NCBI RefSeq assembly: GCF_029714205.1
Contig: NZ_CP121648.1
Span: 4,415,001-4,479,000 of the forward strand
Length of the DNA: 64,000 nt
Direction of reading: 5' to 3'
From: Methylobacterium sp. CB376
GTDB taxonomy: Bacteria; Pseudomonadota; Alphaproteobacteria; Rhizobiales; Beijerinckiaceae
Shown: piece after piece, positions 25,778 to 43,395 of the stretch
Numbering within the stretch: the stretch's first letter is position 1
How the letters are laid out: each line of letters starts with the position of its first letter
Program-made: the position numbers and the translations under genes
Notes under the pieces: model-generated
What the model was told of the DNA's origin: nothing
Databases searched by the model: none
The model's input: the letters and a program-made list of their open reading frames with translations, nothing else

Positions 25778-25867
<90 letters not shown>

Positions 25868-26329
25868 AGCCTTGAGCGTAAGCCCTTGAAGAAACGTGTT
25901 TTTTAGGGGCGCTTGTTGCGCTTGCCCCAACTATTACCCCAATGCGTTGCACGCTCGCACGAGGGGAGGCGCATTGTCGTCGCGGCCGGTCGCTCGCAGC
26001 GCCGGCCGGTCCAGGTCCCGTTTGATCAAGCACTGGCCGCGGGCGCGCTCATCCTCACGGGCGCGGGCCCATCGGCTCCACGGTTGACGTCGGTTGGGGC
26101 GCAGGCCGGCCCGCGCGGCACGGCGGGAGGCCCGAACGGCCACCGCGCGGGCGGCGCCCTCATCACGAGTCGGGGTCGGGCTGCTTTCCACCGGAGCCTG
26201 TCGGCCCTGGCCCGTTCCGGCTGCCGTCATCATGTCGGCTCGGCGGGCGGGACGATCGCCGCCCGTTCCGAGACGCGCCGGATTGTGCGCGTCAGTGCGC
26301 CCCTACGCGCGACCTCGGGAGGCGGCAGG
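25868..26329. other. island left-end region without gene
   Basis: No supported gene. A CCCCAA pair at 25924 and 25937 begins a segment, ACCCCAATGCGTTGCACG (25936-25953), that matches 15 of 18 bases of 48172-48189 at the other end. This makes it a candidate integrase arm-binding site. The rest is GC-rich and featureless. Confidence 0.5.
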
Positions 26330-27157
26330 ATGCGGCACGTCCTCGGGCTCGCTACGGGCTTGGCGCTCCTCCTCGGCGACGAGCCGGGTCGGGCGAACCC
26401 GTCGCGGCATGATCAGGTCCGCATCGTCTACGACCGTCCCAAGAGCGCGGAGGCGCTCGCGATCTACCGGGACCTCAAGGGACGCCGCGTGCTCGAAGGC
26501 CTTCGGGAGATCGTCGGCGGGGTGCGCCTGCCGCGTTCGCTCACCCTGCGGTTCGCGGCGTGCAACGGTGAGGCCAACGCGTGGTACGCGCCCGAGAACC
26601 GGACCGTCACCCTCTGCTACGAGTACGTCCGGTACGTGCAGGACCGGGCGCCCAAACAAGCGTCCACAGCTGGGATCGGGCGCCGCGACGCGGTCTTCGG
26701 TCCCCTGGCGCAGGTGTTCCTGCACGAGGCCGGGCACGCCCTGTTCGATCTCCTCGACGTACCGGTGCTCGGCAGGGAGGAGGATGCCGCCGACCAGTTC
26801 GCGGCTCACGTCCTGCTCGAACTGCCGCCCGCGCAGGCTCGGCCCATCATCGACGGCATCGCACACCTGTACCGCAGCCACGCGGTCGAGGAAGAGGCGG
26901 AGGAGGCCGTGCTCGCCGACGATCACAGCCTCGCCTTGCAGCGCCTCTACAACCTCCTCTGCCTCGCCTACGGGGCGGACCGCCGCGCCTTCGGCTACCT
27001 CGTCGCGGGCGGTGCCCTGCCGCAGGCGCGCGCCGAACAATGCGGGGCGGAGTACGACCTCGCCACGGACTCGCTGCGCAGGCTCTTCCGGAGCCACCTC
27101 CGCGGCGGACGGCTGGAGCGCGCACGCGTCCGCCGCGCATTCCGATGGATGTTCTGA
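26330..27157 (+). CDS. secreted DUF4344-type metallopeptidase
   Basis: A 275-residue protein with an N-terminal signal peptide (residues 1-21, HVLGLATGLALLLG). It contains the zinc-peptidase motif HEAGH in FLHEAGHALFDLLDVPVLGR near residues 130-149, followed by REEDAADQFAAHVLL, which probably supplies the third metal ligand. This matches DUF4344 putative metallopeptidases, thought to be periplasmic. The ATG at 26330 follows GGAGGCGGCAGG, a reasonable ribosome binding site. Being beside a RiPP cluster, it could in principle process the precursor, but family members also occur without such clusters, so this is speculative. Confidence 0.8.
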   Translation: MRHVLGLATGLALLLGDEPGRANPSRHDQVRIVYDRPKSAEALAIYRDLKGRRVLEGLREIVGGVRLPRSLTLRFAACNGEANAWYAPENRTVTLCYEYVRYVQDRAPKQASTAGIGRRDAVFGPLAQVFLHEAGHALFDLLDVPVLGREEDAADQFAAHVLLELPPAQARPIIDGIAHLYRSHAVEEEAEEAVLADDHSLALQRLYNLLCLAYGADRRAFGYLVAGGALPQARAEQCGAEYDLATDSLRRLFRSHLRGGRLERARVRRAFRWMF

Positions 27158-27431
27158 CCCGTTGGCCGGATGCGGCTGGCGCTCGCCTTTTCGACCCGAA
27201 GGTGACGACCCGAACGGCACGGATCGCGTGCGCCTCGGCGTCGGCCCACACTCGGGGGCCAACCGCCGCCCCGAGTGGAGCGCTGCGATCGGCTCGAGCC
27301 TTGCCGGATGGTCTTGCCGAAACGGATTTCGGAGGACCGCGATAGGTCGATCGTCCGGTCCATGCGATGATGCGGGCGGCCCTTGGCGGCGATGCTCCGC
27401 GATGGGTGTGGCCCACCTCGGCGAAAGGCCC

Positions 27432-28352
27432 ATGACTCCGTCCCAAGGCCGGTTCGTCTGGTTCGAGTTGATGACCTCCGACATGGTGGCGGCGCGGGCC
27501 TTCTACGCCGACGTCGTGGGCTGGGGCATGAGAGACGCCTCCGTGCCGGGCGCGCCCTACACGCTCCTGACGGTCGGCGGGACTTCGGTCTGCGGGATCA
27601 TGGGGCTGTCCGGTGCGGCGCGGCGGGCGGGGGTGCAGCCGAGTTGGATCGGCTATGTGGGCGCCGGCGACATCGATGCCGCAACCGATCGTGCCGTGCG
27701 TCTCGGCGGCACGTTGCACATCCCACCGGCGGAGATCCCGGGTGTGAGTCGCTTCTCCGTCGTGAGCGATCCGCAGGCGGCGCGGCTCGGACTCTTCAAA
27801 TGGCTGATGCCCCGCCCGGACGTGGTCGATCCAGCCAGCCGTCCGGGCCATGTCGGCTGGTCCGAACTCCTCGCCGCCGAGAGACGGGGCGCGCTGGACT
27901 TCTACCGCGAACTCTTCGGCTGGGATGATGCGAAGGACGAGGCGGCCGAATCGGCGGGCGAGTACAGCGTGTTTGCGATGGACCGGCAGCCGATCGGCGG
28001 CGTCCTCACCAAGCCCGAGTTCGTGCCGGCTCCGTTCTGGCTGCACTACGTTGTCGTTCCCGACATCGCCGCAGCGGCCGCTCGGGTCGCGGCGGGAGGC
28101 GGCCGGATCCTCAACGGGCCGGTGGAAGGCCCCGGAGACACCTGGATCCTGCACGCCATGGACCCGCAGGGCGCCCTGTTCGCACTGATGGGGCGAGGAT
28201 ATGCCCGGACCGTCACGGCGACGTGGAGGAGCGATTGGGAGAGGCGCCCGACCGGCGGCAAGGTCTCAATCACGCGCGTCGGATCAGTTCCCGGAGACGC
28301 TCCCGGGACGCTTGATGAGCCGCCGGACCGCCCGCGGGGCCGGCGAGCGTGA
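27432..28352 (+). CDS. two-domain VOC family protein (glyoxalase/bleomycin-resistance fold)
   Basis: A 306-residue protein with two tandem vicinal-oxygen-chelate modules. The first is about residues 7-118 (GRFVWFELMTSDMVAARAFY), the second about 133-250 (GHVGWSELLAAERRGALDFY). Each has the beta-alpha-beta-beta-beta pattern with the paired glyoxalase motif. Such proteins act as metal-dependent isomerases or dioxygenases, or sequester drugs. A self-protection role for the neighbouring RiPP cluster is possible but not shown. The C-terminal ~50 residues are basic and disordered. The gene converges on the SagB-type gene. Confidence 0.82.
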   Translation: MTPSQGRFVWFELMTSDMVAARAFYADVVGWGMRDASVPGAPYTLLTVGGTSVCGIMGLSGAARRAGVQPSWIGYVGAGDIDAATDRAVRLGGTLHIPPAEIPGVSRFSVVSDPQAARLGLFKWLMPRPDVVDPASRPGHVGWSELLAAERRGALDFYRELFGWDDAKDEAAESAGEYSVFAMDRQPIGGVLTKPEFVPAPFWLHYVVVPDIAAAAARVAAGGGRILNGPVEGPGDTWILHAMDPQGALFALMGRGYARTVTATWRSDWERRPTGGKVSITRVGSVPGDAPGTLDEPPDRPRGRRA

Positions 28353-28542
28353 CCTCTTGAGCCCACCCGGCGACGCGCCGGACTCTCCAGGCCGTCCGGC
28401 TCGCCAGCGCCCGGCGAGGCGCCCAGGGGGGCGTCTTGCCCCCACGAGCGCGGCGCGCCGGCTGCGCGGGCCGCGCGCGCGATCGCGGCCCTGGCCCCGC
28501 GTGACGCACGGAGGAGCGGACCGTGAGCGGCGCGTCCGTGGA

Positions 28543-30018
28543 CTATGCCGGGCCGTCTGCCTCCTGTTCGAGCCCGCGCCCCAGGGCGAACTGGCCGACG
28601 GCGCCTTCGACGTGGTGCGGCAAGCCCGTCATCCTCGCGAACAGCTCGATGTCGGCCGTGCCGATCGCGCAGCCGCCGAGCCCCATCTCCGTGGCCACGA
28701 GGTACAGTGTCTGGGTGAGGACTCCGACGTTCTTCAGGATCAGCTCATAGGCCACGGCGCTGTACTTCCACGATACCCGGCCGAAGCGCGCCGCGATCGT
28801 GATCAGCACCTGTGGCAGGCAGGGCTCGCCCATCGCGTAGGCGCCGGCCGTGAGCAACGCATTGAGGTCCTGCGGGCGCACGGGGAGGAGCGTGAGGGCG
28901 TGCCGGCCTGCATCGTAATGGTAGTAGCCGGGCGCGAGCCCGTCGCAGTGGCGGATCGCAAGGTAGAGTTCGAGTTCGTAGCTCGCTCCCGCCGAAGGAT
29001 AGGGTCTCGTCGTGTAGGACAATATCGGGCCGTCATGCTTGGCATCGAGCGGGCTGCGCCAGGTCGCCTGGACCCGCGCCACGCTGTCGAGGAGCTGCGC
29101 CAGCTCGGCGCGCGTGAGCGGGGCTTGGTCGTCATAGCTGCGGGTCGAACGGCGCTTGCGTAGCAGGGCCGAGACCGGCCGCACGGTCGTGCCGGGAACG
29201 TCGGAATCCTTGCGCAGGTCGATGGCTCGGCCGGGCCAGCGGGGGCGGACGGCCGGCAAAGGGTTAAACAGGCCGACATAGGGGTAGCGCCCACCCAGGG
29301 GATTGGCGTGTCGGCCCTCCGTACTGCGGGCGTGGAAGAGCAGATCGTGGAAGTCCCAGAGCACGAGGTGCTCGTCGCCCTCCGTCGCGCGCAGGCCGGC
29401 ATCGCCATCGGCCTCGATCCGAAGGAGGATCTGGCTGTCGAGCAGCAAGGCCAGCAGCTCGGCGCCTGGCAGGCCGTCCTGGCGGCGGAGCCGCGCGACG
29501 GGCTGCGGCTCGGAGAGGCCGGCGAGCAGCGCGGCGACGGCGGGATCGCCGATGCGGAACAGGGCCGCGGAGCGGGGCGATTCCAACACCATGTCGCTCG
29601 CGCGCCGCCGCAGGTAGGCAAACCGCGAGAGGACCACGCTGTCGCCGTCGGTCAGGTCCGGCAGCCGCGGCCAGTAATCCGGAACCTGCGGCTCGATCAC
29701 GACCTCACCGCGGTGATCCGCGCCGGCAAGGCTGTACTCGACGAGGCCGCTCCGGGCGAGGCGCTGGACGAGCCGCAGCACGTCGCGGTCGACGCGGTCC
29801 GGGCTCGCGACCAGCGCGCCGACCGGCAGCCCTGCCGATAGCGCGCGCATCCGCTCCACCACACACTCGTCGAAGCGGCCGAGACTGATCTCCTGATGCT
29901 CGACGCGGACCAGGATCTCGCCGCCCGCGCCGGCATCGAGCGCGATGTGGCGGCGAAGACGAACCGACAGCGTTGCCGGCGACGCATCCTGCGTGCCCGC
30001 ATTCCGGGAGGCTTGCAT
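28543..30018 (-). CDS. SagB-type azoline dehydrogenase (TOMM B protein)
   Basis: A 491-residue flavoprotein of the SagB/ThcOx family. The C-terminal ~210 residues are a nitroreductase fold. FMN-binding motifs are RRSTRSYDD (about 289-297) and PYPSAGASYELELYL (about 339-353). WKYS near 417-420 falls where the Lys-Tyr pair of azoline dehydrogenases is expected. The N-terminal ~250 residues form a SagB-associated domain. It is expected to oxidise thiazolines made by the cyclodehydratase to aromatic thiazoles. It starts 13 bp after the cyclodehydratase stop on the same strand, in an obvious operon. Confidence 0.92.
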   Translation of the reverse strand: MQASRNAGTQDASPATLSVRLRRHIALDAGAGGEILVRVEHQEISLGRFDECVVERMRALSAGLPVGALVASPDRVDRDVLRLVQRLARSGLVEYSLAGADHRGEVVIEPQVPDYWPRLPDLTDGDSVVLSRFAYLRRRASDMVLESPRSAALFRIGDPAVAALLAGLSEPQPVARLRRQDGLPGAELLALLLDSQILLRIEADGDAGLRATEGDEHLVLWDFHDLLFHARSTEGRHANPLGGRYPYVGLFNPLPAVRPRWPGRAIDLRKDSDVPGTTVRPVSALLRKRRSTRSYDDQAPLTRAELAQLLDSVARVQATWRSPLDAKHDGPILSYTTRPYPSAGASYELELYLAIRHCDGLAPGYYHYDAGRHALTLLPVRPQDLNALLTAGAYAMGEPCLPQVLITIAARFGRVSWKYSAVAYELILKNVGVLTQTLYLVATEMGLGGCAIGTADIELFARMTGLPHHVEGAVGQFALGRGLEQEADGPA

Positions 30019-30031
30019 GGCGGCAACCCTC

Positions 30032-32290
30032 TCAGGTCGGCGGGAACAGCGGATTGAGGTCGCGCTCGGGGACGCTCCGGTCGAGCCAGCCGAGGGCGAG
30101 CGGAACGTCGTAGAGCCGGCCGGGTCCGAAACGCGGGTAGAAGTGCCGCATCCCGGGAACGATCACCTTGACAACCGGCACGCCGATATCCGGCCGCGTC
30201 TGGTCGAGGACGAGGAATTCGAGTCCGCGGGACGCCATCAGGTCCACGCAGGCGAGGACTTGGTCCCGGCGATCGAGGCGCGCGAAACCGGAGCGGAAAT
30301 CCGGTGGGAGCCTCGGCTGACCGTCGGGCACGAAGTACGGATTGTTGTCGAGGCGCCACCGATGGGCGCTGTCGTCACCCGGATCCACGCTGTGCCGGCG
30401 CGCCATGAGCCCGATCGAGAAGAACTGATTGAGTTCGGTGATGGCGCGTAGCGCAGCGATCCGCGTGTCGAAATGGGAGCCCGAGCCGAACTCGACGCAC
30501 TCCTCACCGTTCTCCGTCCAGTGCGAGATCGCCACGAAGCTGGGGATGCCGAGATCGTTGGTGATGTCGAGCACCCACAATCGGCGTCCGGCCTCCGTCA
30601 ATTGGGCGCGCAGGTCGCGAATGTAGGAGTCATCGAGTGCATCCAGGTCCAGGGGCGGTCTTTGCAGCCGATTGTACCACCAGATCGCGTACGCATCCCG
30701 CTCGACGAGTTCGAGGAAGCCCTGCACGATGGCCTCCTCGATCGTGTTCCCGGCCGCGCAGCCGTTCGAATCCGCACTGGTCTCGGCGTGGCCCGATCCC
30801 CTGCAGAAATAGTACAGGAAGCTCGTGGGCAGGTACTTGAACGCTGCGTCCCGCAGCGACCAGACCGGCGACCACGCGATCGCGGCGGAGGGGTCGAAGG
30901 GAGCCGGTATGAAGGATTCGTGATCGTGCGCGCCCGTGAGGCCCTGACGGTACTGCGCGTCGCTGAAGAGCATGACGTCGTTCGGAGCGATCGCCTCGCC
31001 GGCCCCGAACTCGTCGAAACGCCGGACCACCCTGATCTCGTCGCCTTGGAAGATCCCGGAATACCGCTCGATCGCCTCCATGAGGGCGCTGGCCTGCGCC
31101 TGCTCGCTCGTGCTTCCCTTGCCGTAGCTGTCGCTGCCCAACCCGGCCTTGAGCGCAGGGACCGTTTCGGGGCGCGGCGAGAAGTTGTGGCGCGCGACGT
31201 AGCTGGTGTTCAGGGACAGGTCGGCTTCCATCGGCTCCAGCCGCGAGACGACCCCCGTGAGCGGGCTCACGTGCTTGCGGTAGCGCGCGAGCGTGGCCTC
31301 GGGCGACAGCGCTCGGTATCCCCCGCTCGTCAGCACGAGCTTGCCGCCGGCCTTGAGTTCGAGCGGGTTCGCCGGACGGTTCGGGTCGCGCTGCTCCGGA
31401 TGGCCGCATGCAGGGCATTGCGGACGCGCCGCCACGAAGTGCCGCGCGATCGTCGCCCCCGTCAGGTCGAAGCTGATCACGTGATCGCGCAGGTCCGTGC
31501 GAAAGTCGGTGGCGATCGCCTTCGCGATCTCGATGGCTGCGAACGGCGTCGCGCTCTGCCCGACCGGGTTGCGGACCAGGGGCGACAGCGCCACCGGGTC
31601 GGCCCGCTGCCGTTCCAGAAACGCCTTCACCTCGCGGTTCCACCGCATGCGGTCGGCGAGGCAGGTCCAGCAGGCGCCTTTTCCCGGAGCGAGCAGAGGC
31701 CCCACTAGCGGGAAGATCCCGGAGGGCTGGACGATCAGCCAGGGCGTCTCGTCGGACAGGTGCCGCCGGTTCGTCTCCGCGAGGCGCGCATCGAGGTAAT
31801 CGTTCACCAGCACGACCGTTAGGTCGGCGGTGCGCTTGACCACGCGCACGCCGAGACCGGTCAGCGCCGCCGCGAGGTCGTCGGCGCCCGATACGTCGAG
31901 CGCGCGGATCCGCACCCTGCAGTTCCGGAGGTTCCACTCCGCTGCGCCGGGCGGCAGGCCGAGACTCGCCCAGAAGGCGGCTGCCGCGTCGTCGGCCGCG
32001 ACGCGGTCGAGCAGGACGAAGCGTCGCTCGACCAGCCGCCTGAGGGCTTCGGTGATCGCCTGAGCCGGGAAGTCGAGCGTCAGCGCGTCGAAGATCGCCT
32101 TGAGAGTCCTCCCGGCAGCCAGTTGCGGCGCGAGCGCGGCATAGAGGTCGCCTTCGAGGAAGAACTTGCGGTGTTCCGAATAGAGGCAGACGACGTTGGG
32201 CGGCAGCACGTAGACGGAAAAATTCGGTGCGAACCGCGGAATCTCCCGACCGTCGCGCCGAATCGCAGCACCTCCGCGATCAGCTGTCAT
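30032..32290 (-). CDS. fused TOMM cyclodehydratase (ThiF-like partner plus YcaO)
   Basis: A 752-residue fusion. Residues about 20-300 resemble the E1-like/ThiF (SagC or Ocin-ThiF) partner that binds the leader peptide. It includes a four-cysteine zinc site, CWTC at 207-210 and CPAC at 292-295. Residues about 315-752 are a SagD-type YcaO domain with ATP-binding signatures EQAQASALMEAIERYSG (about 396-412) and GCAAGNTIEEAIVQGFLELV plus the following ERDA. Together they convert Cys, Ser or Thr of a precursor into azolines using ATP. The C-terminus LNPLFPPT is a degenerate form of the Pro-rich tail of these enzymes. The ATG at 32290 is favoured over a GTG at 32308. Confidence 0.95.
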   Translation of the reverse strand: MTADRGGAAIRRDGREIPRFAPNFSVYVLPPNVVCLYSEHRKFFLEGDLYAALAPQLAAGRTLKAIFDALTLDFPAQAITEALRRLVERRFVLLDRVAADDAAAAFWASLGLPPGAAEWNLRNCRVRIRALDVSGADDLAAALTGLGVRVVKRTADLTVVLVNDYLDARLAETNRRHLSDETPWLIVQPSGIFPLVGPLLAPGKGACWTCLADRMRWNREVKAFLERQRADPVALSPLVRNPVGQSATPFAAIEIAKAIATDFRTDLRDHVISFDLTGATIARHFVAARPQCPACGHPEQRDPNRPANPLELKAGGKLVLTSGGYRALSPEATLARYRKHVSPLTGVVSRLEPMEADLSLNTSYVARHNFSPRPETVPALKAGLGSDSYGKGSTSEQAQASALMEAIERYSGIFQGDEIRVVRRFDEFGAGEAIAPNDVMLFSDAQYRQGLTGAHDHESFIPAPFDPSAAIAWSPVWSLRDAAFKYLPTSFLYYFCRGSGHAETSADSNGCAAGNTIEEAIVQGFLELVERDAYAIWWYNRLQRPPLDLDALDDSYIRDLRAQLTEAGRRLWVLDITNDLGIPSFVAISHWTENGEECVEFGSGSHFDTRIAALRAITELNQFFSIGLMARRHSVDPGDDSAHRWRLDNNPYFVPDGQPRLPPDFRSGFARLDRRDQVLACVDLMASRGLEFLVLDQTRPDIGVPVVKVIVPGMRHFYPRFGPGRLYDVPLALGWLDRSVPERDLNPLFPPT

Positions 32291-32467
32291 TCCAAGACCG
32301 CCTGCCACGACATCGGCGTCATCCTTTGCATGCGCAGGCCGAGCCTTCCGGCTCTCGCTTCAGGACTAAAGGGCAATCGCGTTCACCCACCGGGCACGGC
32401 GAACACCCGCGATGACCGGACCATCACTCGTCTCGCCAGCGGTCGAGCCGCCCACACCATTGACGAG

Positions 32468-32519
32468 GAGGTGCCACATGCCCGGCGTTTCCCGGCTAGG
32501 GACGCGGGCAGGGCACCTC
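32468..32519 (-). promoter_or_regulatory. long hairpin between RiPP precursor and cyclodehydratase genes
   Basis: An imperfect stem of 19 base pairs. GAGGTGCC (32468-32475) pairs with GGCACCTC (32512-32519), GCCC (32480-32483) with GGGC (32506-32509), and GCGT with ACGC. CCC/GGG closes a GGCTA loop. It lies about 60 bases after the precursor stop on the minus-strand transcript. No U-run follows, so it is more likely an mRNA-stabilising or attenuating structure than a plain terminator. Confidence 0.65.
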
Positions 32520-32581
32520 GACCATCCATCGCCGAAGCGCGAACGCAGGAGATCTGCGGGCCGTGCGACTGCGGCATGGCG

Positions 32582-32971
32582 TCAGCACCGGCAGCCGCCG
32601 CACCCTCCGCAGCCGCACCGGCATCCTCTGCAGCCGCACCGGCATCCTCTGCAGCCCCTCCACACCCGGCAGCCGCGGCAGCCCCTCCACACGACGTACG
32701 CCTGCTGGACCAGGCCTTGCGTCGGATTGGCCATCTCGTCGTCGAAGACGAAGAACGTCGCGAGGCTCACATCGCTGACTTCTTCCTCGTGGAGACCGAG
32801 CGCGATGTCGGGCCGGGGCGCGCCGTCCTGTGCTGCGGCATCCGCCGCAGGAGTGCTGACGGCAGCGGACGCCCCGCTTGCCATCGACAATGTCAATCCG
32901 ACGACACCCGCCGCCGGTACAACGTCGTTCAGAATCTTGTCCTTGGACAAACGCGGCACGGCACTCTCCAT
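32582..32971 (-). CDS. TOMM precursor peptide with Cys/Arg/Gly core
   Basis: A 129-residue precursor directly upstream of its modifying enzymes. The leader (about 1-94) contains a hydrophobic, signal-like stretch near residues 14-37 (VVGLTLSMASGASA), then an acidic, probably recognition segment DIALGLHEEEVSDVSLATFF. The core (95-129) is made only of Arg, Gly, Cys, Trp and one Val. Its 12 cysteines are at 98, 101, 107, 110, 112, 114, 117, 119, 121, 124, 127 and 129. There is no Ser or Thr, so only thiazoles could form. The core is encoded by tandem DNA repeats: a 21-bp unit lies at 32609-32629 and 32630-32650. A promoter-like sequence lies about 60 bp upstream. Confidence 0.9.
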   Translation of the reverse strand: MESAVPRLSKDKILNDVVPAAGVVGLTLSMASGASAAVSTPAADAAAQDGAPRPDIALGLHEEEVSDVSLATFFVFDDEMANPTQGLVQQAYVVWRGCRGCRVWRGCRGCRCGCRGCRCGCGGCGGCRC

Positions 32972-33031
32972 TGATGGAGTGAGGATCCTACGCGTTCCAT
33001 GCCGGCGCGCGCAGTTGCGCCAAGCTGCTGC

Positions 33032-33059
33032 AGCATACCTTCTTCCGAGACTGCGTCAA
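33032..33059 (-). promoter_or_regulatory. candidate promoter of the RiPP operon
   Basis: On the minus strand, TTGACG (33054-33059) and TATGCT (33032-33037) are separated by 16 bases and resemble housekeeping sigma -35 and -10 boxes. The precursor ATG is about 60 bases downstream. The surrounding DNA is more AT-rich than the window average. Confidence 0.5.
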
Positions 33060-33678
33060 CATGACATCAATAGTCAAGCTTGCTGCTGCACGCGCAAGCC
33101 AATCGATCGGCGCGTCGGAGCATAAAATTCGAAGATTTTCTCATTGAATCATCATTTTGGCCGGCTTGGGTGCGCCTTGTTGAGCAGGGAGATGTCCACC
33201 ATCCGCACCGGTGAGGCAGATTGAGAGGCGTGTCACCTTGCCGAGTAGCCCACCTTACTGCGGCTGACCGAGCGCCGTAGCCGGTGAGACTGCATCGCCG
33301 TCCAAGCCGAAAATCGGTTCCCGTCCGAGATTACACAGCGCGCCGTCTGCATGTATCTGCGCTTCACCCGTCGTAGTCGCAACGTGGAAGGCCTCCTGGC
33401 CGCGCACCCCATCTCCCGTCGCCCACGAGATCGTTCGTCGATGGGCCCTCAAATCAGTCCGGCCACCGCCATCTCCGCGTTCTCGCCCGGGTCCGCACGG
33501 GCGATGGCACCTGAATGACGTGTCCGTTCGGATCGCCGGCCCGCAGGTATGCCTGTGTCCGGCCGTCCAAGCCGAAGGCGAGATGCGGGAGATGTGTGTC
33601 AGGAAATCAAACGCCCCGAACACCTTCGCTACCGGACCTTGCCGACGCGCGCCGCGAAGGGGCGCTTCGGGTCGAGGG
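33060..33678. other. non-coding stretch upstream of the RiPP operon
   Basis: It begins AT-rich (33060-33160), then returns to average composition. A 151-codon minus-strand frame (33255-33710) crosses into the MITE-like element and shows no domain or ribosome binding site, so I do not call a gene. Confidence 0.4.
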
Positions 33679-33840
33679 TGTGTGAAAACGCGGGGGCTTG
33701 CCGAAATCATAGAACAATTTTCTATGTGACAGGCACTCCAGGCCCCCGAATGCCGCTTCTGAGGCAGACAGGATGCCTATCCCGGCACCGCCCAGAGCGT
33801 CTGAGGGAAAATCCTTCTACCGCTTGCGCGTTTTCACACA
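33679..33840. mobile_element. MITE-like element with 14-bp terminal inverted repeats
   Basis: TGTGTGAAAACGCG at 33679-33692 is exactly inverted as CGCGTTTTCACACA at 33827-33840, bounding 162 bp with no transposase. Terminal sequences of the TGTGTGAAAAC type are known from IS1182-like elements (from memory). An internal palindrome ATAGAA-N5-TTCTAT lies at 33709-33725. No clear target-site duplication was seen. Confidence 0.65.
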
Positions 33841-33948
33841 GGCTCGGTCATTCAGAGCCATGTAGCGCCACGCTTCGGAGGCGCCGCGGCGGTTGCGACC
33901 GCGGCGCCCATCTCAGATCTCGGTCTGCTCGGACAAGACCAGGAAAGA

Positions 33949-34097
33949 GGGCGGGCTACATCACCACGGCCGCGGAGCGCGGGGCGGACATGGCCCGGAT
34001 CATGGATCAAAGCGGCCATCGGGACCCGCGGACGGTGGTGGGCTACATTCGGCGGGCAAACGCCTTCAAGGGCCACTCGGGGGCGGGGTTTCTGTGA
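33949..34097 (+). pseudogene. tyrosine integrase C-terminal relic 1
   Basis: About 50 codons encode the end of a tyrosine recombinase. [20 protein letters not shown] is followed by [15 protein letters not shown], with the box-III GH and the nucleophile Tyr, and the tail ends in GHSGAGFL. Everything N-terminal, including the catalytic HxxR region, is missing. A second relic at 40416-40580 is nearly identical, indicating duplication or successive insertions. Confidence 0.75.
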
Positions 34098-34155
34098 GAG
34101 GTCCAGGTCGCGTCGGCATGGCTACCGGCCCGAGGATTACGTCCGCCTGCGGGAG

Positions 34156-34449
34156 ATGATGCAGGACGCTGACCGGCTACCCACCAGCTACGAAGTTTGG
34201 CGCATCTCGGCGGAACAGGTGGAGGGCCAGGTGACACGCAGCGGCGTCGTCGTGGTCCCCATTCTCGTTGAGCCCGATGAGTTCGTCGCCCGGTGCAACG
34301 AGCGCGGATTGCGAACGACATCCGCCCGCTCGGCCGCTACGCTGACGGCGAGCACGGCCTGCGCGTTGCCGTCGAGGTGGCTAGCGCTGCGATCCGAGGG
34401 CCGCATGAACAAAGAGATCCGCGCTGAACCAGGCACTCTGCGCGGATAA
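34156..34449 (+). pseudogene. hypothetical gene, probably frameshifted
   Basis: The first ~55 codons (SYEVWRISAEQVEGQVTRSG, VVVVPILVEPDEFVARCNER) read like a real protein. Protein-like sequence then continues in another frame (NDIRPLGRYADGEHGLRVAV to a stop near 34430), suggesting a one-base indel near 34310-34320. Protein-like codons also precede the ATG (GYRPEDYVRLREMMQ), so the true start is uncertain. No function is recognised. Confidence 0.4.
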
Positions 34450-34504
34450 GGCCCCGGGGATCGCGCTGTGGCGAAACAGCAGCGGCCCGGGGCGACCCCT
34501 TCCA

Positions 34505-34690
34505 CAAAGGACGAAGCGCATGACGCCGATCTGCTTCGACCCGCAGGCCGAGCACCGGAGCCGCAGGGTGATATTGGGGAACGGCAGGGTCGGCGGGGAA
34601 GCGATCAGTGCTGATGGTCGCCTCGTGGCCGCAGCTAGTCGCGTTGTAGTGGGCAAAGGCCGTGCGGTCGCCCTCGGACCGGAGCCAGCC
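34505..34690 (-). pseudogene. frameshifted small zinc-ribbon protein
   Basis: On the minus strand, HYNATSCGHEATISTDRFPA in one frame is followed, after a one-base shift, by LPFPNITLRLRCSACGSKQI and GVM in another. Joined, they look like a short treble-clef or zinc-ribbon protein with a CxxC pair (CSAC), of a type common in Rhizobiales genomes. The break lies near 34590. It is adjacent to other decayed genes. Confidence 0.4.
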
Positions 34691-34700
34691 CAGGGTAGGC

Positions 34701-35045
34701 AGCGGGCGCCCGGCCATTTCCACTGGGCCGCACCCGCGCCTTGCTCGGAGGCTGATCCGAGAGCCGGCGGCGATGCTCGCGCCTCGCGCGGCCGGCGCCC
34801 CAGCACAGCGCGACAAGCGGCGGCCAAGATGTACTTCAACGCTGCCCTGCGCCGTCGTGATACTCTCGTTGGTCCAGTCGGACCGGGGAAGGCACGGCCT
34901 CCACTCACCCTTGCCTTGGGCCGGTCCGCGCAAGCCGCCATGCCCGCGAGGTCCCATGGCGGGCTGAGCGGGTGAAGCGGGGCAGCCGGACCTGGGTGTC
35001 GTACGGCGGTGAGCTGCGGGCAAGCGGTAGTCCGGCGCCCGGCAT
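34701..35045. other. stretch with no supported gene
   Basis: Several overlapping frames exist but none has a ribosome binding site or recognisable motif. It is probably residue of decayed mobile DNA. Confidence 0.4.
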
Positions 35046-35432
35046 TCAGTGATCGTCCGTGGCGGGATCTTTCGGTCTTCCTTGCCGGTCGAAACGGAGC
35101 TTGCGGCGTGCCGCGGCTGGGGACGTGGTCCCTACCTCCTGCGCAGCAATCGCGTCCGTGTACCGCGCGGGCCGAGCGAGCATGATCGCCGTCCTAACGG
35201 CCATCCGCATCTCGGCCTCGGACGAGGCCCTCGCGGCTAAGACCTCGCGAGCGTGCGGGTTGGCCGCTATGACCGCGCAAACGTCGATCGCGATGCCCTC
35301 CGCGAGCGGGCGAGCGCCGGGCTTTGGATCGTTCAGGAAGTTCGTCACGGCCGCGTCGAGCTGCTCGTCGGTGACGCGCTTGAATTCGTATAGGTCGCTG
35401 ATGGTACAGATATCACTCTTCATAAGGACCAC
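35046..35432 (-). CDS. small hypothetical protein, paralogue of the one at 36694
   Basis: A 128-residue protein of unknown function. Its central part (RVTDEQLDAAVTNFLNDPKP, then GIAIDVCAVIAANPHAREVL, then MRMAVRTAIMLARPA) is clearly related to the 85-residue protein at 36694-36951, so both come from a duplicated gene. It carries an extra basic C-terminal tail of about 35 residues. Helical content is high; no signal peptide or membrane segment is present. A 71-codon frame directly upstream (35445-35660, minus strand) may or may not be a gene. Confidence 0.65.
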   Translation of the reverse strand: MVLMKSDICTISDLYEFKRVTDEQLDAAVTNFLNDPKPGARPLAEGIAIDVCAVIAANPHAREVLAARASSEAEMRMAVRTAIMLARPARYTDAIAAQEVGTTSPAAARRKLRFDRQGRPKDPATDDH

Positions 35433-35726
35433 GGATACCTGAAGCTAGGGCAACGACATGCTGCCGAGGGCGTACCTCGGCGCAAGTTCCGATAAATGAT
35501 TCAAGGCCAGTTCGCGCAAGCCGCAGCAGCGACCAATCAACTCATCCTCGATTAGAGCCAGCCGCACAGCCCACCCCACGCAGGCGAGCACAACCTTCGG
35601 CACGCCGTCCGCGATCCGCGGGAGCTGCCTTCGCATGTGGGACCTGTCGTGTGTGAGCACACCTCACGGCCGAAGCTGGCTGCCCTACTCCTTGTGGAGG
35701 CGCAAAATCCACTTGGGAATTCAGCG

Positions 35727-35996
35727 ATGCGTGTCGTTCGTAAGCTGCAGGCCAATTGGCTTCTCCGCAGGGCCAACAAGCAGCTTGAGGAAGCTATAGC
35801 CCTTCAGGAGACCGCGACGGCTCTCAGGTTGAAGGCGGAGGCGAACATCGCCGCTGCCGACAAGATGCTGGTGCGCGCTTCGAGGCCGGGGCTGTTTCGG
35901 GACGTCATAGTCGGCGCGCTACTCGATTCAATCTCAGGTCGGGACCAACGACGGGTCCAGAGTTCAGCTGCTTCGTTACCTCGGACGATGCCCTGA
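35727..35996 (+). CDS. small hypothetical coiled-coil protein
   Basis: An 89-residue protein. The first ~55 residues form a probable coiled coil (RANKQLEEAIALQETATALR, then LKAEANIAAADKMLVRA). GGGAA seven bases before the ATG could serve as a ribosome binding site. The frame stays open upstream to 35637, but that part is not protein-like. No function is recognised. Confidence 0.5.
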   Translation: MRVVRKLQANWLLRRANKQLEEAIALQETATALRLKAEANIAAADKMLVRASRPGLFRDVIVGALLDSISGRDQRRVQSSAASLPRTMP

Positions 35997-36044
35997 ACGC
36001 CACGTCGTGCTTGGTCGGGACCCCGACGGGGTCTGCACGTCACG

Positions 36045-36085
36045 ACGCGACGGCGCTCAACCTGCGGAACGTGTAGATGGCGATA
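36045..36085 (+). repeat. relic of a duplicated gene 3' end, copy A
   Basis: It encodes the tail DATALNLRNV and a stop. The segment at 39195-39237 encodes DATAFSLRNVQTAT and a stop with clearly related DNA. Both copies are followed, within about 250 bp, by the same 69-bp terminator-containing repeat. They look like the conserved ends of a decayed, duplicated locus, possibly phage-derived. Confidence 0.5.
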
Positions 36086-36160
36086 GAGTAGCCCAGGTGA
36101 ATGTGCCGGGCCGGCAAGTGTGGTGGGGTGGAGGGGCCTCACCGATGCAAACGCACCTCT

Positions 36161-36201
36161 GCCCGCCCGGTATTCCCCCTCGCCGTGGCGGGCTCTTTCT
36201 T
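36161..36201 (+). terminator. conserved terminator T1
   Basis: GCCCGCC (36161-36167) pairs with GGCGGGC (36187-36193), followed by TCTTTCTT. It is the first of a family of near-identical terminators at 36-39.7 kb. Confidence 0.8.
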
Positions 36202-36252
36202 CGGCGCGGGGCGTGGGTAGTGCGAACTGCCAAGTTGCGGATCGGCAGCTGG

Positions 36253-36321
36253 GCATGCTTCTCTGGCGGGGTTCTACTCTACACAGCCTTTCAGCCCGCC
36301 CGGCCCTGCCGTGGCGGGCTT
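36253..36321 (+). repeat. 69-bp repeat, copy A
   Basis: It is identical to 39292-39360 except for two substitutions. It starts GCATGCTTCTCT, continues GCGGGGTTCTACTCTACACA, and ends in the T2 terminator hairpin. Confidence 0.9.
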
Positions 36322-36325
36322 CCTT
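36293..36325 (+). terminator. conserved terminator T2
   Basis: AGCCCGCC (36293-36300) pairs with GGCGGGCT (36313-36320), followed by TCCTTC. It forms the end of the 69-bp repeat. Confidence 0.8.
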
Positions 36326-36377
36326 CTGCAAGGCGTCACGCTCTATGGCTAAACCGCTCACGGCGGGGAGGCAGCGC

Positions 36378-36577
36378 ATGGCCGACGACCTCGACGTTCG
36401 GGACGCGCTGGAGGCGCTCCTCCGCGAGGCCGGCAGCATCTGGGACGTGCGCGACCGCGACGACGAGTGGCGCCTGGAGGCGAGCTTCATGGTGGAGCAG
36501 CACGCCCCGCCTGCTGCGAGGACCTGAACGGCCTGGAGGGCCGCGAGCGCTTCAAGGTGATGAAGCGGGAAGCCTGA
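36378..36577 (+). pseudogene. frameshifted paralogue of the small protein at 38005
   Basis: The start MADDLDVRDALEALLREAGS matches the intact 66-residue gene at 38005 closely, and the end (CCEDLNGLEGRERFKVMKRE) also matches but in another frame. One base is missing near 36507-36513, giving a premature stop at 36527. Upstream DNA (GGCGTCACGCTCTATGGCTA versus GGCGTCACACTCCACGGCTA) is also shared, so the whole cassette, including the preceding terminator, was duplicated. Confidence 0.75.
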
Positions 36578-36660
36578 GGCAAGGTCCGTGGGATCTATGT
36601 TACCGCCGCGGCCAGTCCTGGCCGCATGGCAAACACCTCCGTCTGCCTACCGTACCAGCT

Positions 36661-36690
36661 CGCCCGGCGGCCCACCGGGCGGGCTTCGTC
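36661..36690 (+). terminator. terminator-like hairpin T7
   Basis: CGCCCGG (36661-36667) pairs with CCGGGCG (36675-36681), followed by GGCTTCGTCG. It lies between the frameshifted small gene and the 3' end of the gene at 36694. Confidence 0.55.
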
Positions 36691-36693
36691 GTC

Positions 36694-36951
36694 TCAGGCC
36701 GGCCGCGCCTGCAGGATTGCCGTCCTGACCACGATGCGGCGCGCGCGATCACCGAGGGCGGGATCGTCCAGCACGTCCCGGGCGATCTCGTGGTTCGCCA
36801 CGGCCGCGGCGACGTCGATCGCCACGCCCTTCGCGATCAGGCGCATGCCGGGCGTGGGATCATCCAGGTACTCCCGCACGGCGGCGTTGATCTGCTTGTC
36901 GGTGACGGCGTTGAGCTCGAGCAGCTCGCCGATGGTGGGTGTGTCGGGCAT
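36694..36951 (-). CDS. small hypothetical protein, paralogue of the one at 35046
   Basis: An 85-residue protein. VTDKQINAAVREYLDDPTPG, GVAIDVAAAVANHEIARDVL and RRIVVRTAILQARPA align with the 128-residue protein at 35046 over their whole length. It lacks the basic tail of that paralogue. Function is unknown; a helical, probably soluble protein. It faces the tape-measure relic. Confidence 0.65.
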   Translation of the reverse strand: MPDTPTIGELLELNAVTDKQINAAVREYLDDPTPGMRLIAKGVAIDVAAAVANHEIARDVLDDPALGDRARRIVVRTAILQARPA

Positions 36952-36989
36952 GGCGGGGATGTAGGCGTACAGCCGGGCCGGAGCGAGTC

Positions 36990-37253
36990 GGCGAGGATCG
37001 CAAGCCAGAAGCCTACGTGCCGCTCCCGAACGGCAAGTGGATCCCCGTCACGACGCAGGCTGGCGCCAACTCGAACCAGTCGACCGCGCCGAACTGCGTA
37101 GCGATCAACATCGACGTGACCGGCGCCAAGGGCAACACTGAGATCCACGAAATGGTGAGTAGCGGTGGGAGAGCTGGGTTCCAGGCGTATGCCGCTGGCC
37201 TCGACCGAACTATTCCCAGCAAGGTGGACAATGCCCGCCGCTGCCGCGGCTGA
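36990..37253 (+). pseudogene. phage tail tape-measure C-terminal relic
   Basis: The frame encodes VGEDRKPEAYVPLPNGKWIP, then AINIDVTGAKGNTEIHEMVS and GFQAYAAGLDRTIPSKV. This is the pattern of the C-termini of tape-measure proteins (VGE-x-GPEA-x-x-PL...). Only about 85 codons remain, with no start or upstream gene. It shows that part of this island came from a tailed prophage or a related element. Confidence 0.6.
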
Positions 37254-37275
37254 GGACATGAGGGAGAATGCGTCA

Positions 37276-37533
37276 ATGGCCGATCAAGAACCGGTTTCCG
37301 TCGACGCGATTCAAACAGGAACAGCCCTGATGCTCCGGCACATTTTGCGTGTATTGGAGCGCAGCGGGCTTACCAACGAGGAAGAAACAGTTTCGATCCT
37401 CGATGGATTCATTGCAAATGTCGATCTTGGACACGCATCTTTTCTGCAAGCGATCAGATACACGTACTCGCTACACCATCGTATGAGTTTTTCGGTCATC
37501 GACGGCGGCAAGCAAGATACCGACGATACGTAG
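37276..37533 (+). CDS. small hypothetical protein
   Basis: An 85-residue, probably helical protein (ALMLRHILRVLERSGLTNEE, then TVSILDGFIANVDLGHASFL) with no recognised domain. AGGGAGA lies eight bases before the ATG at 37276. Base composition is lower in GC than the flanking chromosome, in keeping with a horizontally acquired region. Confidence 0.6.
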   Translation: MADQEPVSVDAIQTGTALMLRHILRVLERSGLTNEEETVSILDGFIANVDLGHASFLQAIRYTYSLHHRMSFSVIDGGKQDTDDT

Positions 37534-37916
37534 CGCCGAAATGACCGATAAGCTGGAGCCATAAACTGGACCGATCATGATCCCGTGCCGGCGGAGCACT
37601 TCGGTGCCGGCCAGCTCGCCTATCTTACGGGGGGCCGGCAACCGTATCCAGCACTGGCAGGCAGAGCAGGCAGGGATGGCAACTTCGACCGCGTGTCCGA
37701 GACGCTCATCATCGAGCCGACCGACACGGGCGATTGGTTCTTCAACGCCAGCCGGCCGCCGGCTTGCTCGCACGTCGTCGTGAACCTCGCGCCTCAGCAC
37801 TCTCCCGTGTGCACGACATGAGCATGAGGAACGCGCAGGAGGCGATCCGCTAGCTTAAGTTAGCGCGCAGTGCCGGCAGGCGTGGTGGGATAGCAACTTC
37901 ATGCGGAACCCGTACT
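37534..37916. other. stretch with no supported gene
   Basis: A 78-codon plus-strand frame (37585-37821) contains a protein-like patch, TLIIEPTDTGDWFFNA, but its rest is not convincing. It may be another relic. Confidence 0.35.
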
Positions 37917-37951
37917 AGCCCGCCCAGCGCCCCCGCTGCGGCGGGCTTCCT
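37917..37951 (+). terminator. conserved terminator T3
   Basis: AGCCCGCC (37917-37924) pairs with GGCGGGCT (37940-37947), followed by TCCTTG. It immediately precedes the cassette with the gene at 38005. Confidence 0.75.
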
Positions 37952-38004
37952 TGTGGAAGGCGTCACACTCCACGGCTATGCCGCTCACGACAGAGGGGCA
38001 GCGC

Positions 38005-38205
38005 ATGGCCGACGACTTTGACATCCGGGACGCGCTGGAGGCGCTCCTCCGGGAGGCGGGCCAGATCTTCGACGTGCGCGACCGCGACGACGACTGGGCC
38101 CTGGCGGCGTCGTTCGTCGTCGAGATCCAGGCCCGGGCGTGCTGCGAGGATCTCAACGGCCTCGAGTGCCGGGAGCGGTTCAAGGTGGTCAAGCGCGGGG
38201 CCTGA
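38005..38205 (+). CDS. small hypothetical acidic protein (intact copy)
   Basis: A 66-residue protein: MADDFDIRDALEALLREAGQ, then FDVRDRDDDWALAASFVVEI, then CCEDLNGLECRERFKVVKRG. A paralogue at 36378 is frameshifted. AGGGGCAGCGC before the ATG may be the ribosome binding site. The acidic N-terminal helix and adjacent cysteines are its only notable features; function is unknown. Confidence 0.65.
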   Translation: MADDFDIRDALEALLREAGQIFDVRDRDDDWALAASFVVEIQARACCEDLNGLECRERFKVVKRGA

Positions 38206-38670
38206 GGCGCCCTTCCGGGCCGACGGAACCGCCCGGAGCCGCCGCGCGATGAGCCGTCATCACGGATCTCCACTCTGACGCCGGCCGGGCGCACCCTCCC
38301 GAGCCGGCGTTCCTTTGTGCGGGCCGGGCCGTCAGGGGGGCCATCAAACCCGGCCCGCTGCCCTGCTCCGGGCGTGCGGGCCTGGAGCGGACGGCCGAAG
38401 ACTTACACAGTCGAGGCAGCGGCCCGCAAGGCCCCGCCGGAGGCCGAAAGACTGCCCCTCGACTAGGACCAGCCACGCGGCCCGCGGGAATGCTTCCAGG
38501 GACTGTCCGGCGGGCCTGTTTCGAGTTCCATAAACCGGCTTACGCGCCCCGCGCCGCCCCGCGCGCGAGATGCCGGCCTGACAGGGTTCGTTGATCCGGC
38601 CGCAGGTTGCGCGATCACGCCGTGGACAGTATTGTTTTCATACTCACAAGTCTGTTAGACCTGCTTAGCT
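38206..38670. other. stretch with no supported gene
   Basis: GC-rich at first, AT-richer from about 38620. It probably holds the promoter of the AraC-type gene; no clear boxes are seen. Confidence 0.4.
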
Positions 38671-39117
38671 ATGAGTTCCAATAATATCGTACCCGCTCCA
38701 GAGATGACAGACACGTTCACTCAACGTTTGCGCGCCTTTGTGACTGAAATGCCAATCAGTGGGATAGAAGTCGCAGAGGTGATTGGGTTTAGTCGGCGCA
38801 CACTAAGCCGCCGGCTGAAGTCCGAGGGTGCAACTTTCAAGGAAGTTATCAACGAAGCGCGGTTTAATGTTGCGAAGCAGTTGTTGGTTAACACTGACAT
38901 GAGCTTGGCGGAAATCTCGGCCGCGCTGGAGTTTTCTGAGCCGGCCGCGTTCACGCACGCCTTCCGGCGCTGGACCGGCACGACGCCAAGCGCATGGCGG
39001 AAGAAGCACCAGCAGGTTGAACCGCTATGTTGCGCGGACCGTCCAGACGGTGCTCGTGTTCGTCAGCGCAGACGTCGGGCTAGGAAGGCGCGGAGGGTGA
39101 GCCGTCGGGCGGAGTGA
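38671..39117 (+). CDS. AraC-type DNA-binding protein lacking a sensor domain
   Basis: A 148-residue protein containing only the C-terminal double helix-turn-helix of AraC regulators (about residues 20-115). The segments EVAEVIGFSRRTLSRRLKSE and MSLAEISAALEFSEPAAFTH, then AFRRWTGTTPSAWRKKH, are all present. Typical AraC regulators are near 300 residues with an N-terminal effector domain. This is either a stand-alone DNA-binding protein or a truncation. The last ~30 residues are Arg-rich. Base composition is AT-richer than surrounding genes. Confidence 0.7.
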   Translation: MSSNNIVPAPEMTDTFTQRLRAFVTEMPISGIEVAEVIGFSRRTLSRRLKSEGATFKEVINEARFNVAKQLLVNTDMSLAEISAALEFSEPAAFTHAFRRWTGTTPSAWRKKHQQVEPLCCADRPDGARVRQRRRRARKARRVSRRAE

Positions 39118-39194
39118 ATGGGCCACCCGGCGCCTTTCCGCCGTAGCAGACGTTCTCGCCCCATACTGCGGCTTATGCGAACGGCCGGCTTCGC

Positions 39195-39237
39195 CGACGC
39201 CACGGCGTTCAGCCTGCGAAACGTGCAGACGGCGACG
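39195..39237 (+). repeat. relic of a duplicated gene 3' end, copy B
   Basis: It encodes DATAFSLRNVQTAT and a stop at 39237-39239. The related copy is at 36045-36085. The 69-bp repeat follows at 39292. Confidence 0.5.
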
Positions 39238-39291
39238 TGATGAGGATTGTGTAGGGGGCGACTGAGCAGCGCCTTGCCAGCTTGGCCGCTA

Positions 39292-39360
39292 GCATGCTTC
39301 TCTAGCGGGGTTCTACTCTACACAGCCTTTCAGCCCGCCCGGTCCTGCCGTGGCGGGCTT
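39292..39360 (+). repeat. 69-bp repeat, copy B
   Basis: 67 of 69 bases match 36253-36321. It ends with the T4 terminator hairpin. Confidence 0.9.
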
Positions 39361-39365
39361 TTCTT
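39332..39365 (+). terminator. conserved terminator T4
   Basis: AGCCCGCC (39332-39339) pairs with GGCGGGCT (39352-39359), followed by TTTCTTG. Confidence 0.8.
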
Positions 39366-39486
39366 GTGGCCTTGCCAAGCTGATGCGGCGGCACAGCTTA
39401 GATTGGGCCCTAAGTGCTATTCTGACCACCGATCGGTGGGCCTACTCTGACCGCTCCTCATAAGACGATCTTCGAGACCCGCCTTG

Positions 39487-39525
39487 GCCCGCCCGGTATT
39501 CCCCTTGCCGTGGCGGGCTTCTCTT
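39487..39525 (+). terminator. conserved terminator T5
   Basis: GCCCGCC (39487-39493) pairs with GGCGGGC (39512-39518), followed by TTCTCTTA. The loop CGGTATTCCCC matches that of T1. Confidence 0.8.
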
Positions 39526-39613
39526 AGCCTCGTTCACCCGCACAGCGCAGCATGATTATAGTTTCGTTGCCGGGGCCATCGTGGTCTGCTGTGCACTTCT
39601 CCAAAGTCGTACT

Positions 39614-39841
39614 TCAGCCCACCCGGTCCTGCCGCGGTGGGCTTTCTTCGTCGGCCTTGGGCCCACAGAGCATGACGTGTGTTGGGACCAGCAGGAGATC
39701 GCGGCTGAGCGCGATGACGTGGCTGGAGCGGCCGAATGGCTCGAGGACGAAGGCGTAGTAGGCGCTTGTGGCGAAGAGCCTGAGCCGGGGAGCGGCGGCG
39801 GCGATGCCGCAATCAGTCAGCAGCTGGGCGGTGTCCGTCAT
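39614..39841 (-). CDS. small hypothetical protein
   Basis: A 75-residue frame with protein-like composition (TAQLLTDCGIAAAAPRLRLF, then YYAFVLEPFGRSSHVIALSR). It reads into the T6 hairpin at its end. No ribosome binding site or known domain was seen, so it is uncertain. Confidence 0.4.
   Translation of the reverse strand: MTDTAQLLTDCGIAAAAPRLRLFATSAYYAFVLEPFGRSSHVIALSRDLLLVPTHVMLCGPKADEESPPRQDRVG
39616..39649 (+). terminator. conserved terminator T6 with compensatory changes
   Basis: AGCCCACC (39616-39623) pairs with GGTGGGCT (39636-39643), followed by TTCTTCG. Relative to T2 and T4, a G-to-A change on the left arm is matched by C-to-T on the right, so the stem is preserved. Confidence 0.8.
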
Positions 39842-40048
39842 GGCTCAGCTTGCTGGTCCCTGACGCCGGCTCGCGCATTCACGCACGCTCGCATTGCCCG
39901 CCCGGAGACGCCCTGATCCAGGTCAAGGTGCTGTCGGCTGGCGATGCCTCTGCTGCGGGGACTTCGCGTGTGTCGTGACGCACGTCGGGCCGTTTACGGG
40001 TTCCTACCTGGATCGGCACACCCTGGTTGTTCCTCCCTAGGGGCGTGC

Positions 40049-43241: not shown

Positions 43242-43340
43242 GGAACGCGTAGGCCCGCATCGCACGCTCGACGTTTGCGACGTGGGGACTCAGTGGGTGA
43301 TCTCGAGGATGAACGCCTTTGACCGCCGCGCTGCGGGGCC

Positions 43341-43385: not shown

Positions 43386-43395
43386 GCCCACAGCG

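Follow-up and report, generated by a model that had tools for sequence, protein, structure and literature searches.

A putative azole-RiPP cassette with a signal-like precursor leader and a linked VOC gene on an integrative island of Methylobacterium sp. CB376

We analysed a stretch of 64,000 nucleotides from Methylobacterium sp. CB376 (contig NZ_CP121648.1, positions 4,415,001 to 4,479,000, hereafter the window) and found a cassette of four genes that, judging from its sequences, very probably installs a chain of thiazole rings in a Cys-rich peptide. The genes encode a precursor peptide, a fused cyclodehydratase, a SagB-type dehydrogenase and a protein of the vicinal oxygen chelate (VOC) superfamily. 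The precursor/enzyme cassette is real and conserved, and it is a member of a family of azole-containing ribosomally synthesised and post-translationally modified peptides (RiPPs) for which we found no characterisation, not a new class. What appears to go beyond earlier print, as far as we could find, is the signal-like leader of the precursor together with the linked VOC gene. We consider it reasonably probable that this is an acquired azole-RiPP cassette working in four steps, whose product would be exported by the Sec route and which would have the VOC protein as a partner.

A preliminary description of the stretch had placed a minimal three-gene pathway on three minus-strand open reading frames (ORFs). 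All three were found where it had located them (28543-30018, 30032-32308 and 32582-32971), and its assignment to the azole RiPPs (thiazole/oxazole-modified microcins, TOMMs, or linear azol(in)e-containing peptides, LAPs) is well supported, as the enzyme families exceed curated cut-offs and the precursor adjoins them. However, it drew the cassette too narrowly, as this should extend over about 27317-33062, and a three-gene pathway without immunity is doubtful since the VOC gene travels with the cassette. The features of the cassette are as follows:

27432..28352, plus strand: two-domain VOC protein (glyoxalase/bleomycin-resistance-like), convergent with SagB
28543..30018, minus strand: SagB/ThcOx-type dehydrogenase, 491 aa; best solved relatives SagB-type dehydrogenase 8pz5 and CyaGox 5lq4
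30032..32308, minus strand: fused leader-binding E1-like and YcaO cyclodehydratase, 758 aa; TIGR03882 and TIGR03604; PF21084 winged helix; best solved relative LynD
32582..32971, minus strand: precursor peptide gene, 129 aa counted from ATG
32582..32689, minus strand: precursor core including the stop codon, final 35 residues WRGCRGCRVWRGCRGCRCGCRGCRCGCGGCGGCRC
27317..33062, strand not applicable: cassette unit at the DNA level, outermost ends in comparisons with two other Methylobacterium genomes

Azole-forming enzymes and the Cys-rich core

The 758-aa protein scores 161 bits against TIGR03882 (cut-off 36.9) and 246 bits against the SagD/YcaO model TIGR03604 (cut-off 219), and the 491-aa protein 162 bits against TIGR03605 (cut-off 78; all NCBIfam), so that the fused ThiF-like/YcaO enzyme and the SagB-type dehydrogenase proposed earlier both lie above the NCBIfam cut-offs. 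The latter has the signature of a flavin mononucleotide (FMN) azoline dehydrogenase, with a further match to PF22767, and gives ThcOx and nitroreductase matches in Pfam. There, the cyclodehydratase matches YcaO (E 2e-98) and, at residues 27-96, the winged helix PF21084 (24.9 bits versus 24.1); winged-helix domains of this type bind leaders. In the translated fusion protein, the zinc-site motif CxxC...CxxC that had been noticed earlier consists of CWTC and CPAC. A comparison with solved structures placed LynD first for the cyclodehydratase (3.6e-149; TruD 4.2e-141) and a SagB-type dehydrogenase/CyaGox first for the SagB protein (8e-59). Because of these closest solved relatives, we assigned the enzyme pair to the cyanobactin type.

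By homology with these enzymes, the winged-helix domain of the cyclodehydratase would bind the precursor block EEEVSDVSLATFFVFD, and Cys residues of the core would be converted into thiazolines in an ATP-driven reaction. SagB/ThcOx would then oxidise the thiazolines to thiazoles, giving a cationic Arg/Gly/thiazole chain. We regard thiazole formation by this pair as highly probable.

We then examined the conservation of the genes. A scan of genome contigs gave 112 confirmed cyclodehydratase relatives, of which 80 were kept as loci. SagB follows the cyclodehydratase in all 80, and a similar Cys/Gly-rich precursor precedes it in 73, the other seven contigs starting at most 486 bases before the cyclodehydratase. 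Compared with two Methylobacterium relatives, the ratio of nonsynonymous to synonymous substitution rates (dN/dS) is 0.21-0.39 for SagB, the cyclodehydratase, the VOC gene and the precursor leader (core excluded). Hence, the four cassette genes are under purifying selection, the precursor in its leader part, and this, together with the cross-genus conservation, rules out a chance or repeat artefact.

The final 35 residues of the window precursor contain 12 Cys, 9 Arg and 11 Gly and neither Ser nor Thr, in agreement with the preliminary description. No Pfam family matches the precursor at 0.1, and NCBIfam gives a chance-level match only (E 0.46). For the family, 72 precursors (from 70 of the 80 loci, L120 and the window) yielded 68 distinct cores, taken from the first Cys after residue 60, with 36% Gly, 30% Cys and 13% Arg. 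Without the C-terminal tail, these cores comprise 2937 residues, including 881 Cys, 1187 Gly, 378 Arg, 21 Ser and 9 Thr, with no Asp, Glu or Lys. As a single base change turns the Gly codons GGC and GGT into Ser or Asp codons, this composition suggests selection against Ser and Asp. The commonest Cys spacing is two intervening residues. Thiazole-only chemistry is plausible for the window core from its composition, but Cys-only cores are not a family rule: a CxSWG tail is found in 56 of the 68 distinct cores, and only 12 of the 68 lack both Ser and Thr. The tail is missing in 15 of the 72 precursors, namely three from Methylobacterium and 12 of the Methylocystis type.

A different substrate was proposed in 2010 for the fused enzyme of Methylobacterium sp. 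4-46, according to the accessible text of Haft et al. (PMC2887384): the cyclodehydratase would serve a distant NHLP (nitrile-hydratase-like) precursor. On this reading, the adjacent ORF would be incidental. The genome does contain two NHLP-like stretches, but they score 38.1 and 36.2 bits, below the cut-off of 50.9. One (L113:1486-1857) is a 123-aa ORF with a GG but zero Cys; the other, judged by eye, resembles a nitrile-hydratase-type alpha subunit and carries CTLCSCYPW. Two further points argue against a distant substrate: the Cys-rich precursor adjoins the enzyme on every contig that extends far enough, and the window's YcaO protein is the only one of the two detected in the genome to match TIGR03882. 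We consider this explanation hardly probable at all, and if this genome is strain 4-46 or near to it, the 2010 assignment is probably wrong. The ORF at L113:1486-1857 is a possible Ser/Thr-type or decayed RiPP precursor. The second YcaO protein (G000 C1 2575891-2576952, L002) scores 73.7 of 219 bits against TIGR03604, has no TIGR03882 match and lies, by eye, next to an oxidoreductase and a sugar-isomerase-like protein.

The signal-like leader and the route of export

The window precursor is laid out as a signal-like N-terminus (approximately residues 1-36, ending ASA/A), the recognition block EEEVSDVSLATFFVFDDE and the 12-Cys core; a GTG four codons after the ATG matches the start position of several relatives. 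An alignment of 17 precursors showed a basic N-terminus and a hydrophobic Gly/Ala-rich stretch, mostly ending AxA, then a variable linker and the block EEEISDVSLATFYVFDKE adjoining the core. The recognition block, [EDQ]E[ILVM]x4L, occurs in all 72 extracted precursors. It has the spacing of L(X)4L, a motif bound by the LynD-type domain and described for PatE/LynD and MprE7/MprC in the accessible part of PMC12455567.

The N-terminus was scored with a home-made signal rule, which is not a published predictor: a 10-residue window with a mean hydropathy of at least 1.5 in a charge-free run of at least 14, a net n-region charge of at least +2 and an AxA nearby. By this rule, 66 of the 72 leaders pass, compared with 1.5% of shuffled leaders. 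Of the 120 best listed database relatives, 91 pass; here the rule accepts 0.9% of shuffled sequences and, among neighbouring ORFs, 39 of 738. An AxA lies inside residues 21-50 in 71 of the 72 precursors. The basic-hydrophobic-AxA N-terminus may be a Sec-type signal, in which case the modified peptide would exit by the general secretory route and signal peptidase would cut off just the N-terminal third of the precursor. Such a signal would explain a cassette without a transporter or leader protease. Sec signals are highly unusual in bacterial RiPP precursors, and their use in the native host has been shown for bufferins only, according to the accessible part of a 2025 survey (PMC12452194). We give even chances to the leader being a functional Sec signal.

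Several observations weigh against export by this route. While the family mostly passes the rule, the window leader fails it on charge, with an n-region net charge of 0 from the ATG (+1 from the GTG, by eye). Of the six leaders that fail, those of the window and L120 have too low an n-charge, that of L091 has no AxA within the range, and those of L040, L048 and L090 do have an AxA, but just outside the position that the rule inspects. The rule also missed 29 of the 120 database relatives, although nine of the 12 misses listed seem to begin upstream of the homologous start. Furthermore, the hydrophobic segment is conserved in its letters, not just in its character, and so fits a recognition role as well. 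Finally, some loci have an oligopeptide/dipeptide-type ATP-binding cassette (ABC) transporter (ATPase in 11 loci, solute-binding protein in 10, permease in 8), nearly all in Bradyrhizobium, which starts about 1-4 kb beyond SagB (e.g., L093, L096, L106 and L112, at about 12.6-16 kb in the locus). Its binding protein suggests an importer, and since the transporter also lies outside the shared Methylobacterium unit, we did not count it into the cassette.

These observations could fit a conventional linear azole antibiotic of the microcin B17/phazolicin kind, in which the whole leader would serve recognition, the protease would be unlinked and the pump unlinked or loosely linked. The LAP enzyme set is complete, the letter-level conservation of the hydrophobic segment is expected of a recognition element, and the ABC transporter, importer-like as it is, occurs beyond SagB in a subset of loci. 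Against this, no transporter or protease lies inside the DNA-level unit common to the Methylobacterium cassettes in two comparisons, and the signal architecture with its AxA is nearly universal among the precursors. Leaving aside the cassette's own four families and a family that overlaps the precursor in a different frame, OpgC is the commonest of the 30 neighbour families listed, with 18 loci. We consider a conventional linear azole antibiotic rather unlikely. Besides the transporter proteins, the other seven of ten further neighbour families are a carboxyltransferase, a DUF192 protein, a cold-shock protein, a dehydratase, a histidine kinase, a cyclase and one without a match. S8 protease (PF00082) gave five matches in the genome and none in the 64-kb window.

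Other leader types were also considered. A Tat (twin-arginine translocation) signal was rejected: up to E 10, the 17 aligned precursors match no Tat model, the NCBIfam one being TIGR01409, and the window leader has no Arg pair. A double-glycine (C39) leader is less likely, as the GG lies about 30 residues before the core-adjoining block and reads SG in the window. The LAGAAC of Methylocystis leaders is a candidate lipoprotein signal.

A Sec-exported Cys-rich RiPP could also serve bufferin-like metal handling in the periplasm, binding metal via thiazoles or leftover thiols, and would then not be an antibiotic. Sec-signal RiPP precursors are known chiefly from the copper-binding bufferins (PMC12452194, accessible part), the cassette has no dedicated transporter, and four of the 72 cores (L035, L043, L045 and L080) have 4-6 His. 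However, the other 68 have fewer than two His, the cores lack Asp and Glu, and nothing metal-related was recognised among the subset of neighbour families scanned. The sporadic presence of the cassette, in three of 111 Methylobacterium genomes, is also more in keeping with a conflict or niche trait than with a housekeeping one. Metal handling is thus an improbable function.

The VOC partner, the island and the spread of the family

The earlier statement that no immunity gene lies within 10 kb overlooked the VOC gene, whose role is putative and whose stop is 190 bp from the SagB stop. Its product has the paired beta-alpha-beta-beta-beta modules of the VOC superfamily and scores 31.1 bits versus 24.5 against Ble-like_N (PF22677), which is a family resemblance only, drug binding being putative. 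A VOC gene adjoins the cassette in 63 of the 80 loci (53 upstream divergent, 10 downstream convergent), always on the opposite strand. In a VOC tree, 40 cassette rows form one clade with support 100/99, and 24 other VOC rows fall outside it. At the DNA level, the gene is common to the cassettes of three Methylobacterium genomes with differing flanks. We consider it very likely, on this comparative evidence, that the VOC protein belongs functionally to the azole system.

If it does, it may bind the product in the producer, as a bleomycin-resistance-like self-protection, or perhaps tailor it further, as AbxF would. The two-domain VOC proteins Rv0577 and AbxF share 27-31% identity with the cassette VOC, and the antibiotic on which AbxF acts belongs to a different chemical class. 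No His was found in the invariant or near-invariant columns of a 26-sequence VOC alignment, and the classical His/Glu metal site looks absent. Whether the role is protective rather than tailoring is, to us, evenly balanced. A role as an acidic charge sponge for the cationic product is unsupported, since cassette VOCs are less acidic than others (mean net charge -4.2, n=74, versus -9.8, n=29; near-copies included).

The absence of an adjacent VOC gene from 13 Methylocystis-type loci also counts against a VOC partner, which is hence dispensable, and would suit a passenger gene kept by synteny with no pathway role. VOC proteins of this kind are moreover common, being found in 140 of 397 family genomes at 1e-20, compared with 38 of 397 for the cyclodehydratase. 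A mere passenger is nevertheless quite improbable: the gene switches side between lineages yet remains adjacent and on the opposite strand, the cassette VOCs are a single clade, and the three Methylobacterium cassettes keep it despite their differing flanks. Where Methylocystis-type cassettes lack the VOC, we often found an amidase (PF01425, one member scanned) with an RR-bearing N-terminus directly after SagB (nine loci, eight of them Methylocystis-type; e.g., L057:11716-13302 and L068:11639-13282), which may substitute for processing or protection.

The cassette had been described as island-borne, and this holds: it lies on a 22.4-kb integrase island in a tRNA-Ser gene, for which a same-species genome has an empty site. 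The features of the island are:

25868..48312, strand not applicable: integrative island, 22,445 bases including a single copy of the repeat
25778..25867, plus strand: tRNA-Ser(GGA), attachment site; its final 14 bases are the left repeat
25854..25867, plus strand: left attachment (att) repeat CTCTCTCTCCGCCA
48299..48312, plus strand: right att repeat
46976..48151, minus strand: tyrosine recombinase (Arm-DNA-bind_3, Phage_int_M and Phage_integrase), at the right end of the island

The same-species genome (G423, 93% complete) has no cyclodehydratase. In it, the counterpart of window positions 16000-25867 (99%) joins that of 48299-55900 (100%) with a 14-base overlap, CTCTCTCTCCGCCA, which closes the tRNA-Ser(GGA) and recurs at 48299-48312. 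We placed the cassette on an integrative island at tRNA-Ser because of this empty site, the att repeats and the tyrosine recombinase, and the azole-RiPP cassette appears to have been horizontally acquired. The island also holds many short ORFs and diverged internal duplicates (36301-36507/37928-38134, 81%; 33949-34095/40432-40578, 83%), and scattered relatives of island pieces occur in G423.

Within Methylobacterium, the cyclodehydratase is found in the three of 111 genomes mentioned above, the window's own counted in. The 80 loci belong mostly to Bradyrhizobium, Methylocystis and other Hyphomicrobiales/Alphaproteobacteria, with one record labelled Frankia. A protein database gave 2353 precursor relatives at E <= 1e-3, a count that Cys/Gly low-complexity cores may inflate, and the best 120 of these were inspected. 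No precursor match was found in PLSDB at 1e-5, which does not support spread by plasmids. The database copy of the exact precursor lies on a contig of 7,659,055 bases, compared with 7,636,458 bases here, a difference of about 22.6 kb. Among relatives, about 2 kb separate SagB from the VOC gene in L120, and SagB starts about 0.8 kb after the cyclodehydratase in L097; this extra DNA suggests insertions.

That the core composition was not recognised among named products may hold as far as named products go, but a precursor of this sort from Bradyrhizobium japonicum was already cited in 2009 and relatives are numerous in Hyphomicrobiales. The accessible text of Haft 2009 (PMC2674419), citing Lee et al. 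2008, describes a putative thiazole bacteriocin precursor with Cys-Arg-Gly repeats in B. japonicum; from the repeat and the genus, it very probably belongs to the same family. That text mentions neither a signal-like leader nor a VOC partner. Among the papers listed by our literature searches (titles and the openings of abstracts, with most subscription papers excluded), none gives these precursors a product or family name, links a VOC protein to them or describes a YcaO RiPP with a Sec signal. The string 'rhizob' is absent from the main text of PMC4603692 (supplements excluded), and the phazolicin paper PMC10128002 contains the words Bradyrhizobium and YcaO. It also weighs against the proposed function that we know of no product or activity for any family member.

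Taken furthest, the four-step reading would be that of a YcaO RiPP exported by Sec with a cleavable signal. In this way, the polythiazole chain, with an acidic remnant (EEE..FDKE) still attached, would reach the periplasm or the exterior, and in the cytoplasm a VOC protein dedicated to the system would handle or shield the chain; we offer this only tentatively. Such a system would be an azole counterpart of the bufferins, present in many Bradyrhizobium and Methylocystis and carried by an island here. If the signal peptide is real, an azole-forming enzyme class joins the short list of Sec-using RiPPs, the transporter and protease problem of the family disappears, and how the cell holds a signal-bearing precursor until it is modified becomes a question. 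If the VOC protein binds the thiazole chain, this would be a type of self-protection for which we found no precedent among azole RiPPs and a handle on the function of the product. The precursor family is large and occurs in legume-associated and methane-oxidising genera, with no product found in the accessible literature searched.

Comparison with known systems

The cassette has the components by which TOMMs/LAPs are recognised, namely a YcaO protein with an E1-like partner, an adjacent precursor with a leader and a Cys-rich core, and a B protein. It is set apart by its fused LynD-like enzyme, a unit without transporter or protease, the signal-like leader and the linked VOC gene. Two further precursor models were compared: the heterocycloanthracin model (TIGR03601) gives nothing for the window precursor up to E 10 and matches 11 of the 17 aligned precursors weakly (best 5e-5), and the NHLP leader model (TIGR03793) is not among the five families matched by the 17 precursors at E up to 10.

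The cyanobactins (LynD, TruD and CyaGox) provide the closest solved enzyme relatives and have a similar hydrophobic-x4-Leu recognition spacing. However, they have the S8 proteases PatA/PatG, a type absent from the window, with five elsewhere in the genome, and the cassette differs from them in its long Cys/Gly/Arg core and its alphaproteobacterial host. Like the bufferins (MNIO RiPPs), the cassette has a Cys-containing precursor, which may carry a signal peptide, here predicted, in place of a plain leader. The modification chemistry differs, as bufferins use an MNIO enzyme and a DUF2063 partner, whereas the cassette would use YcaO/SagB chemistry, its proteins being YcaO, SagB and VOC.

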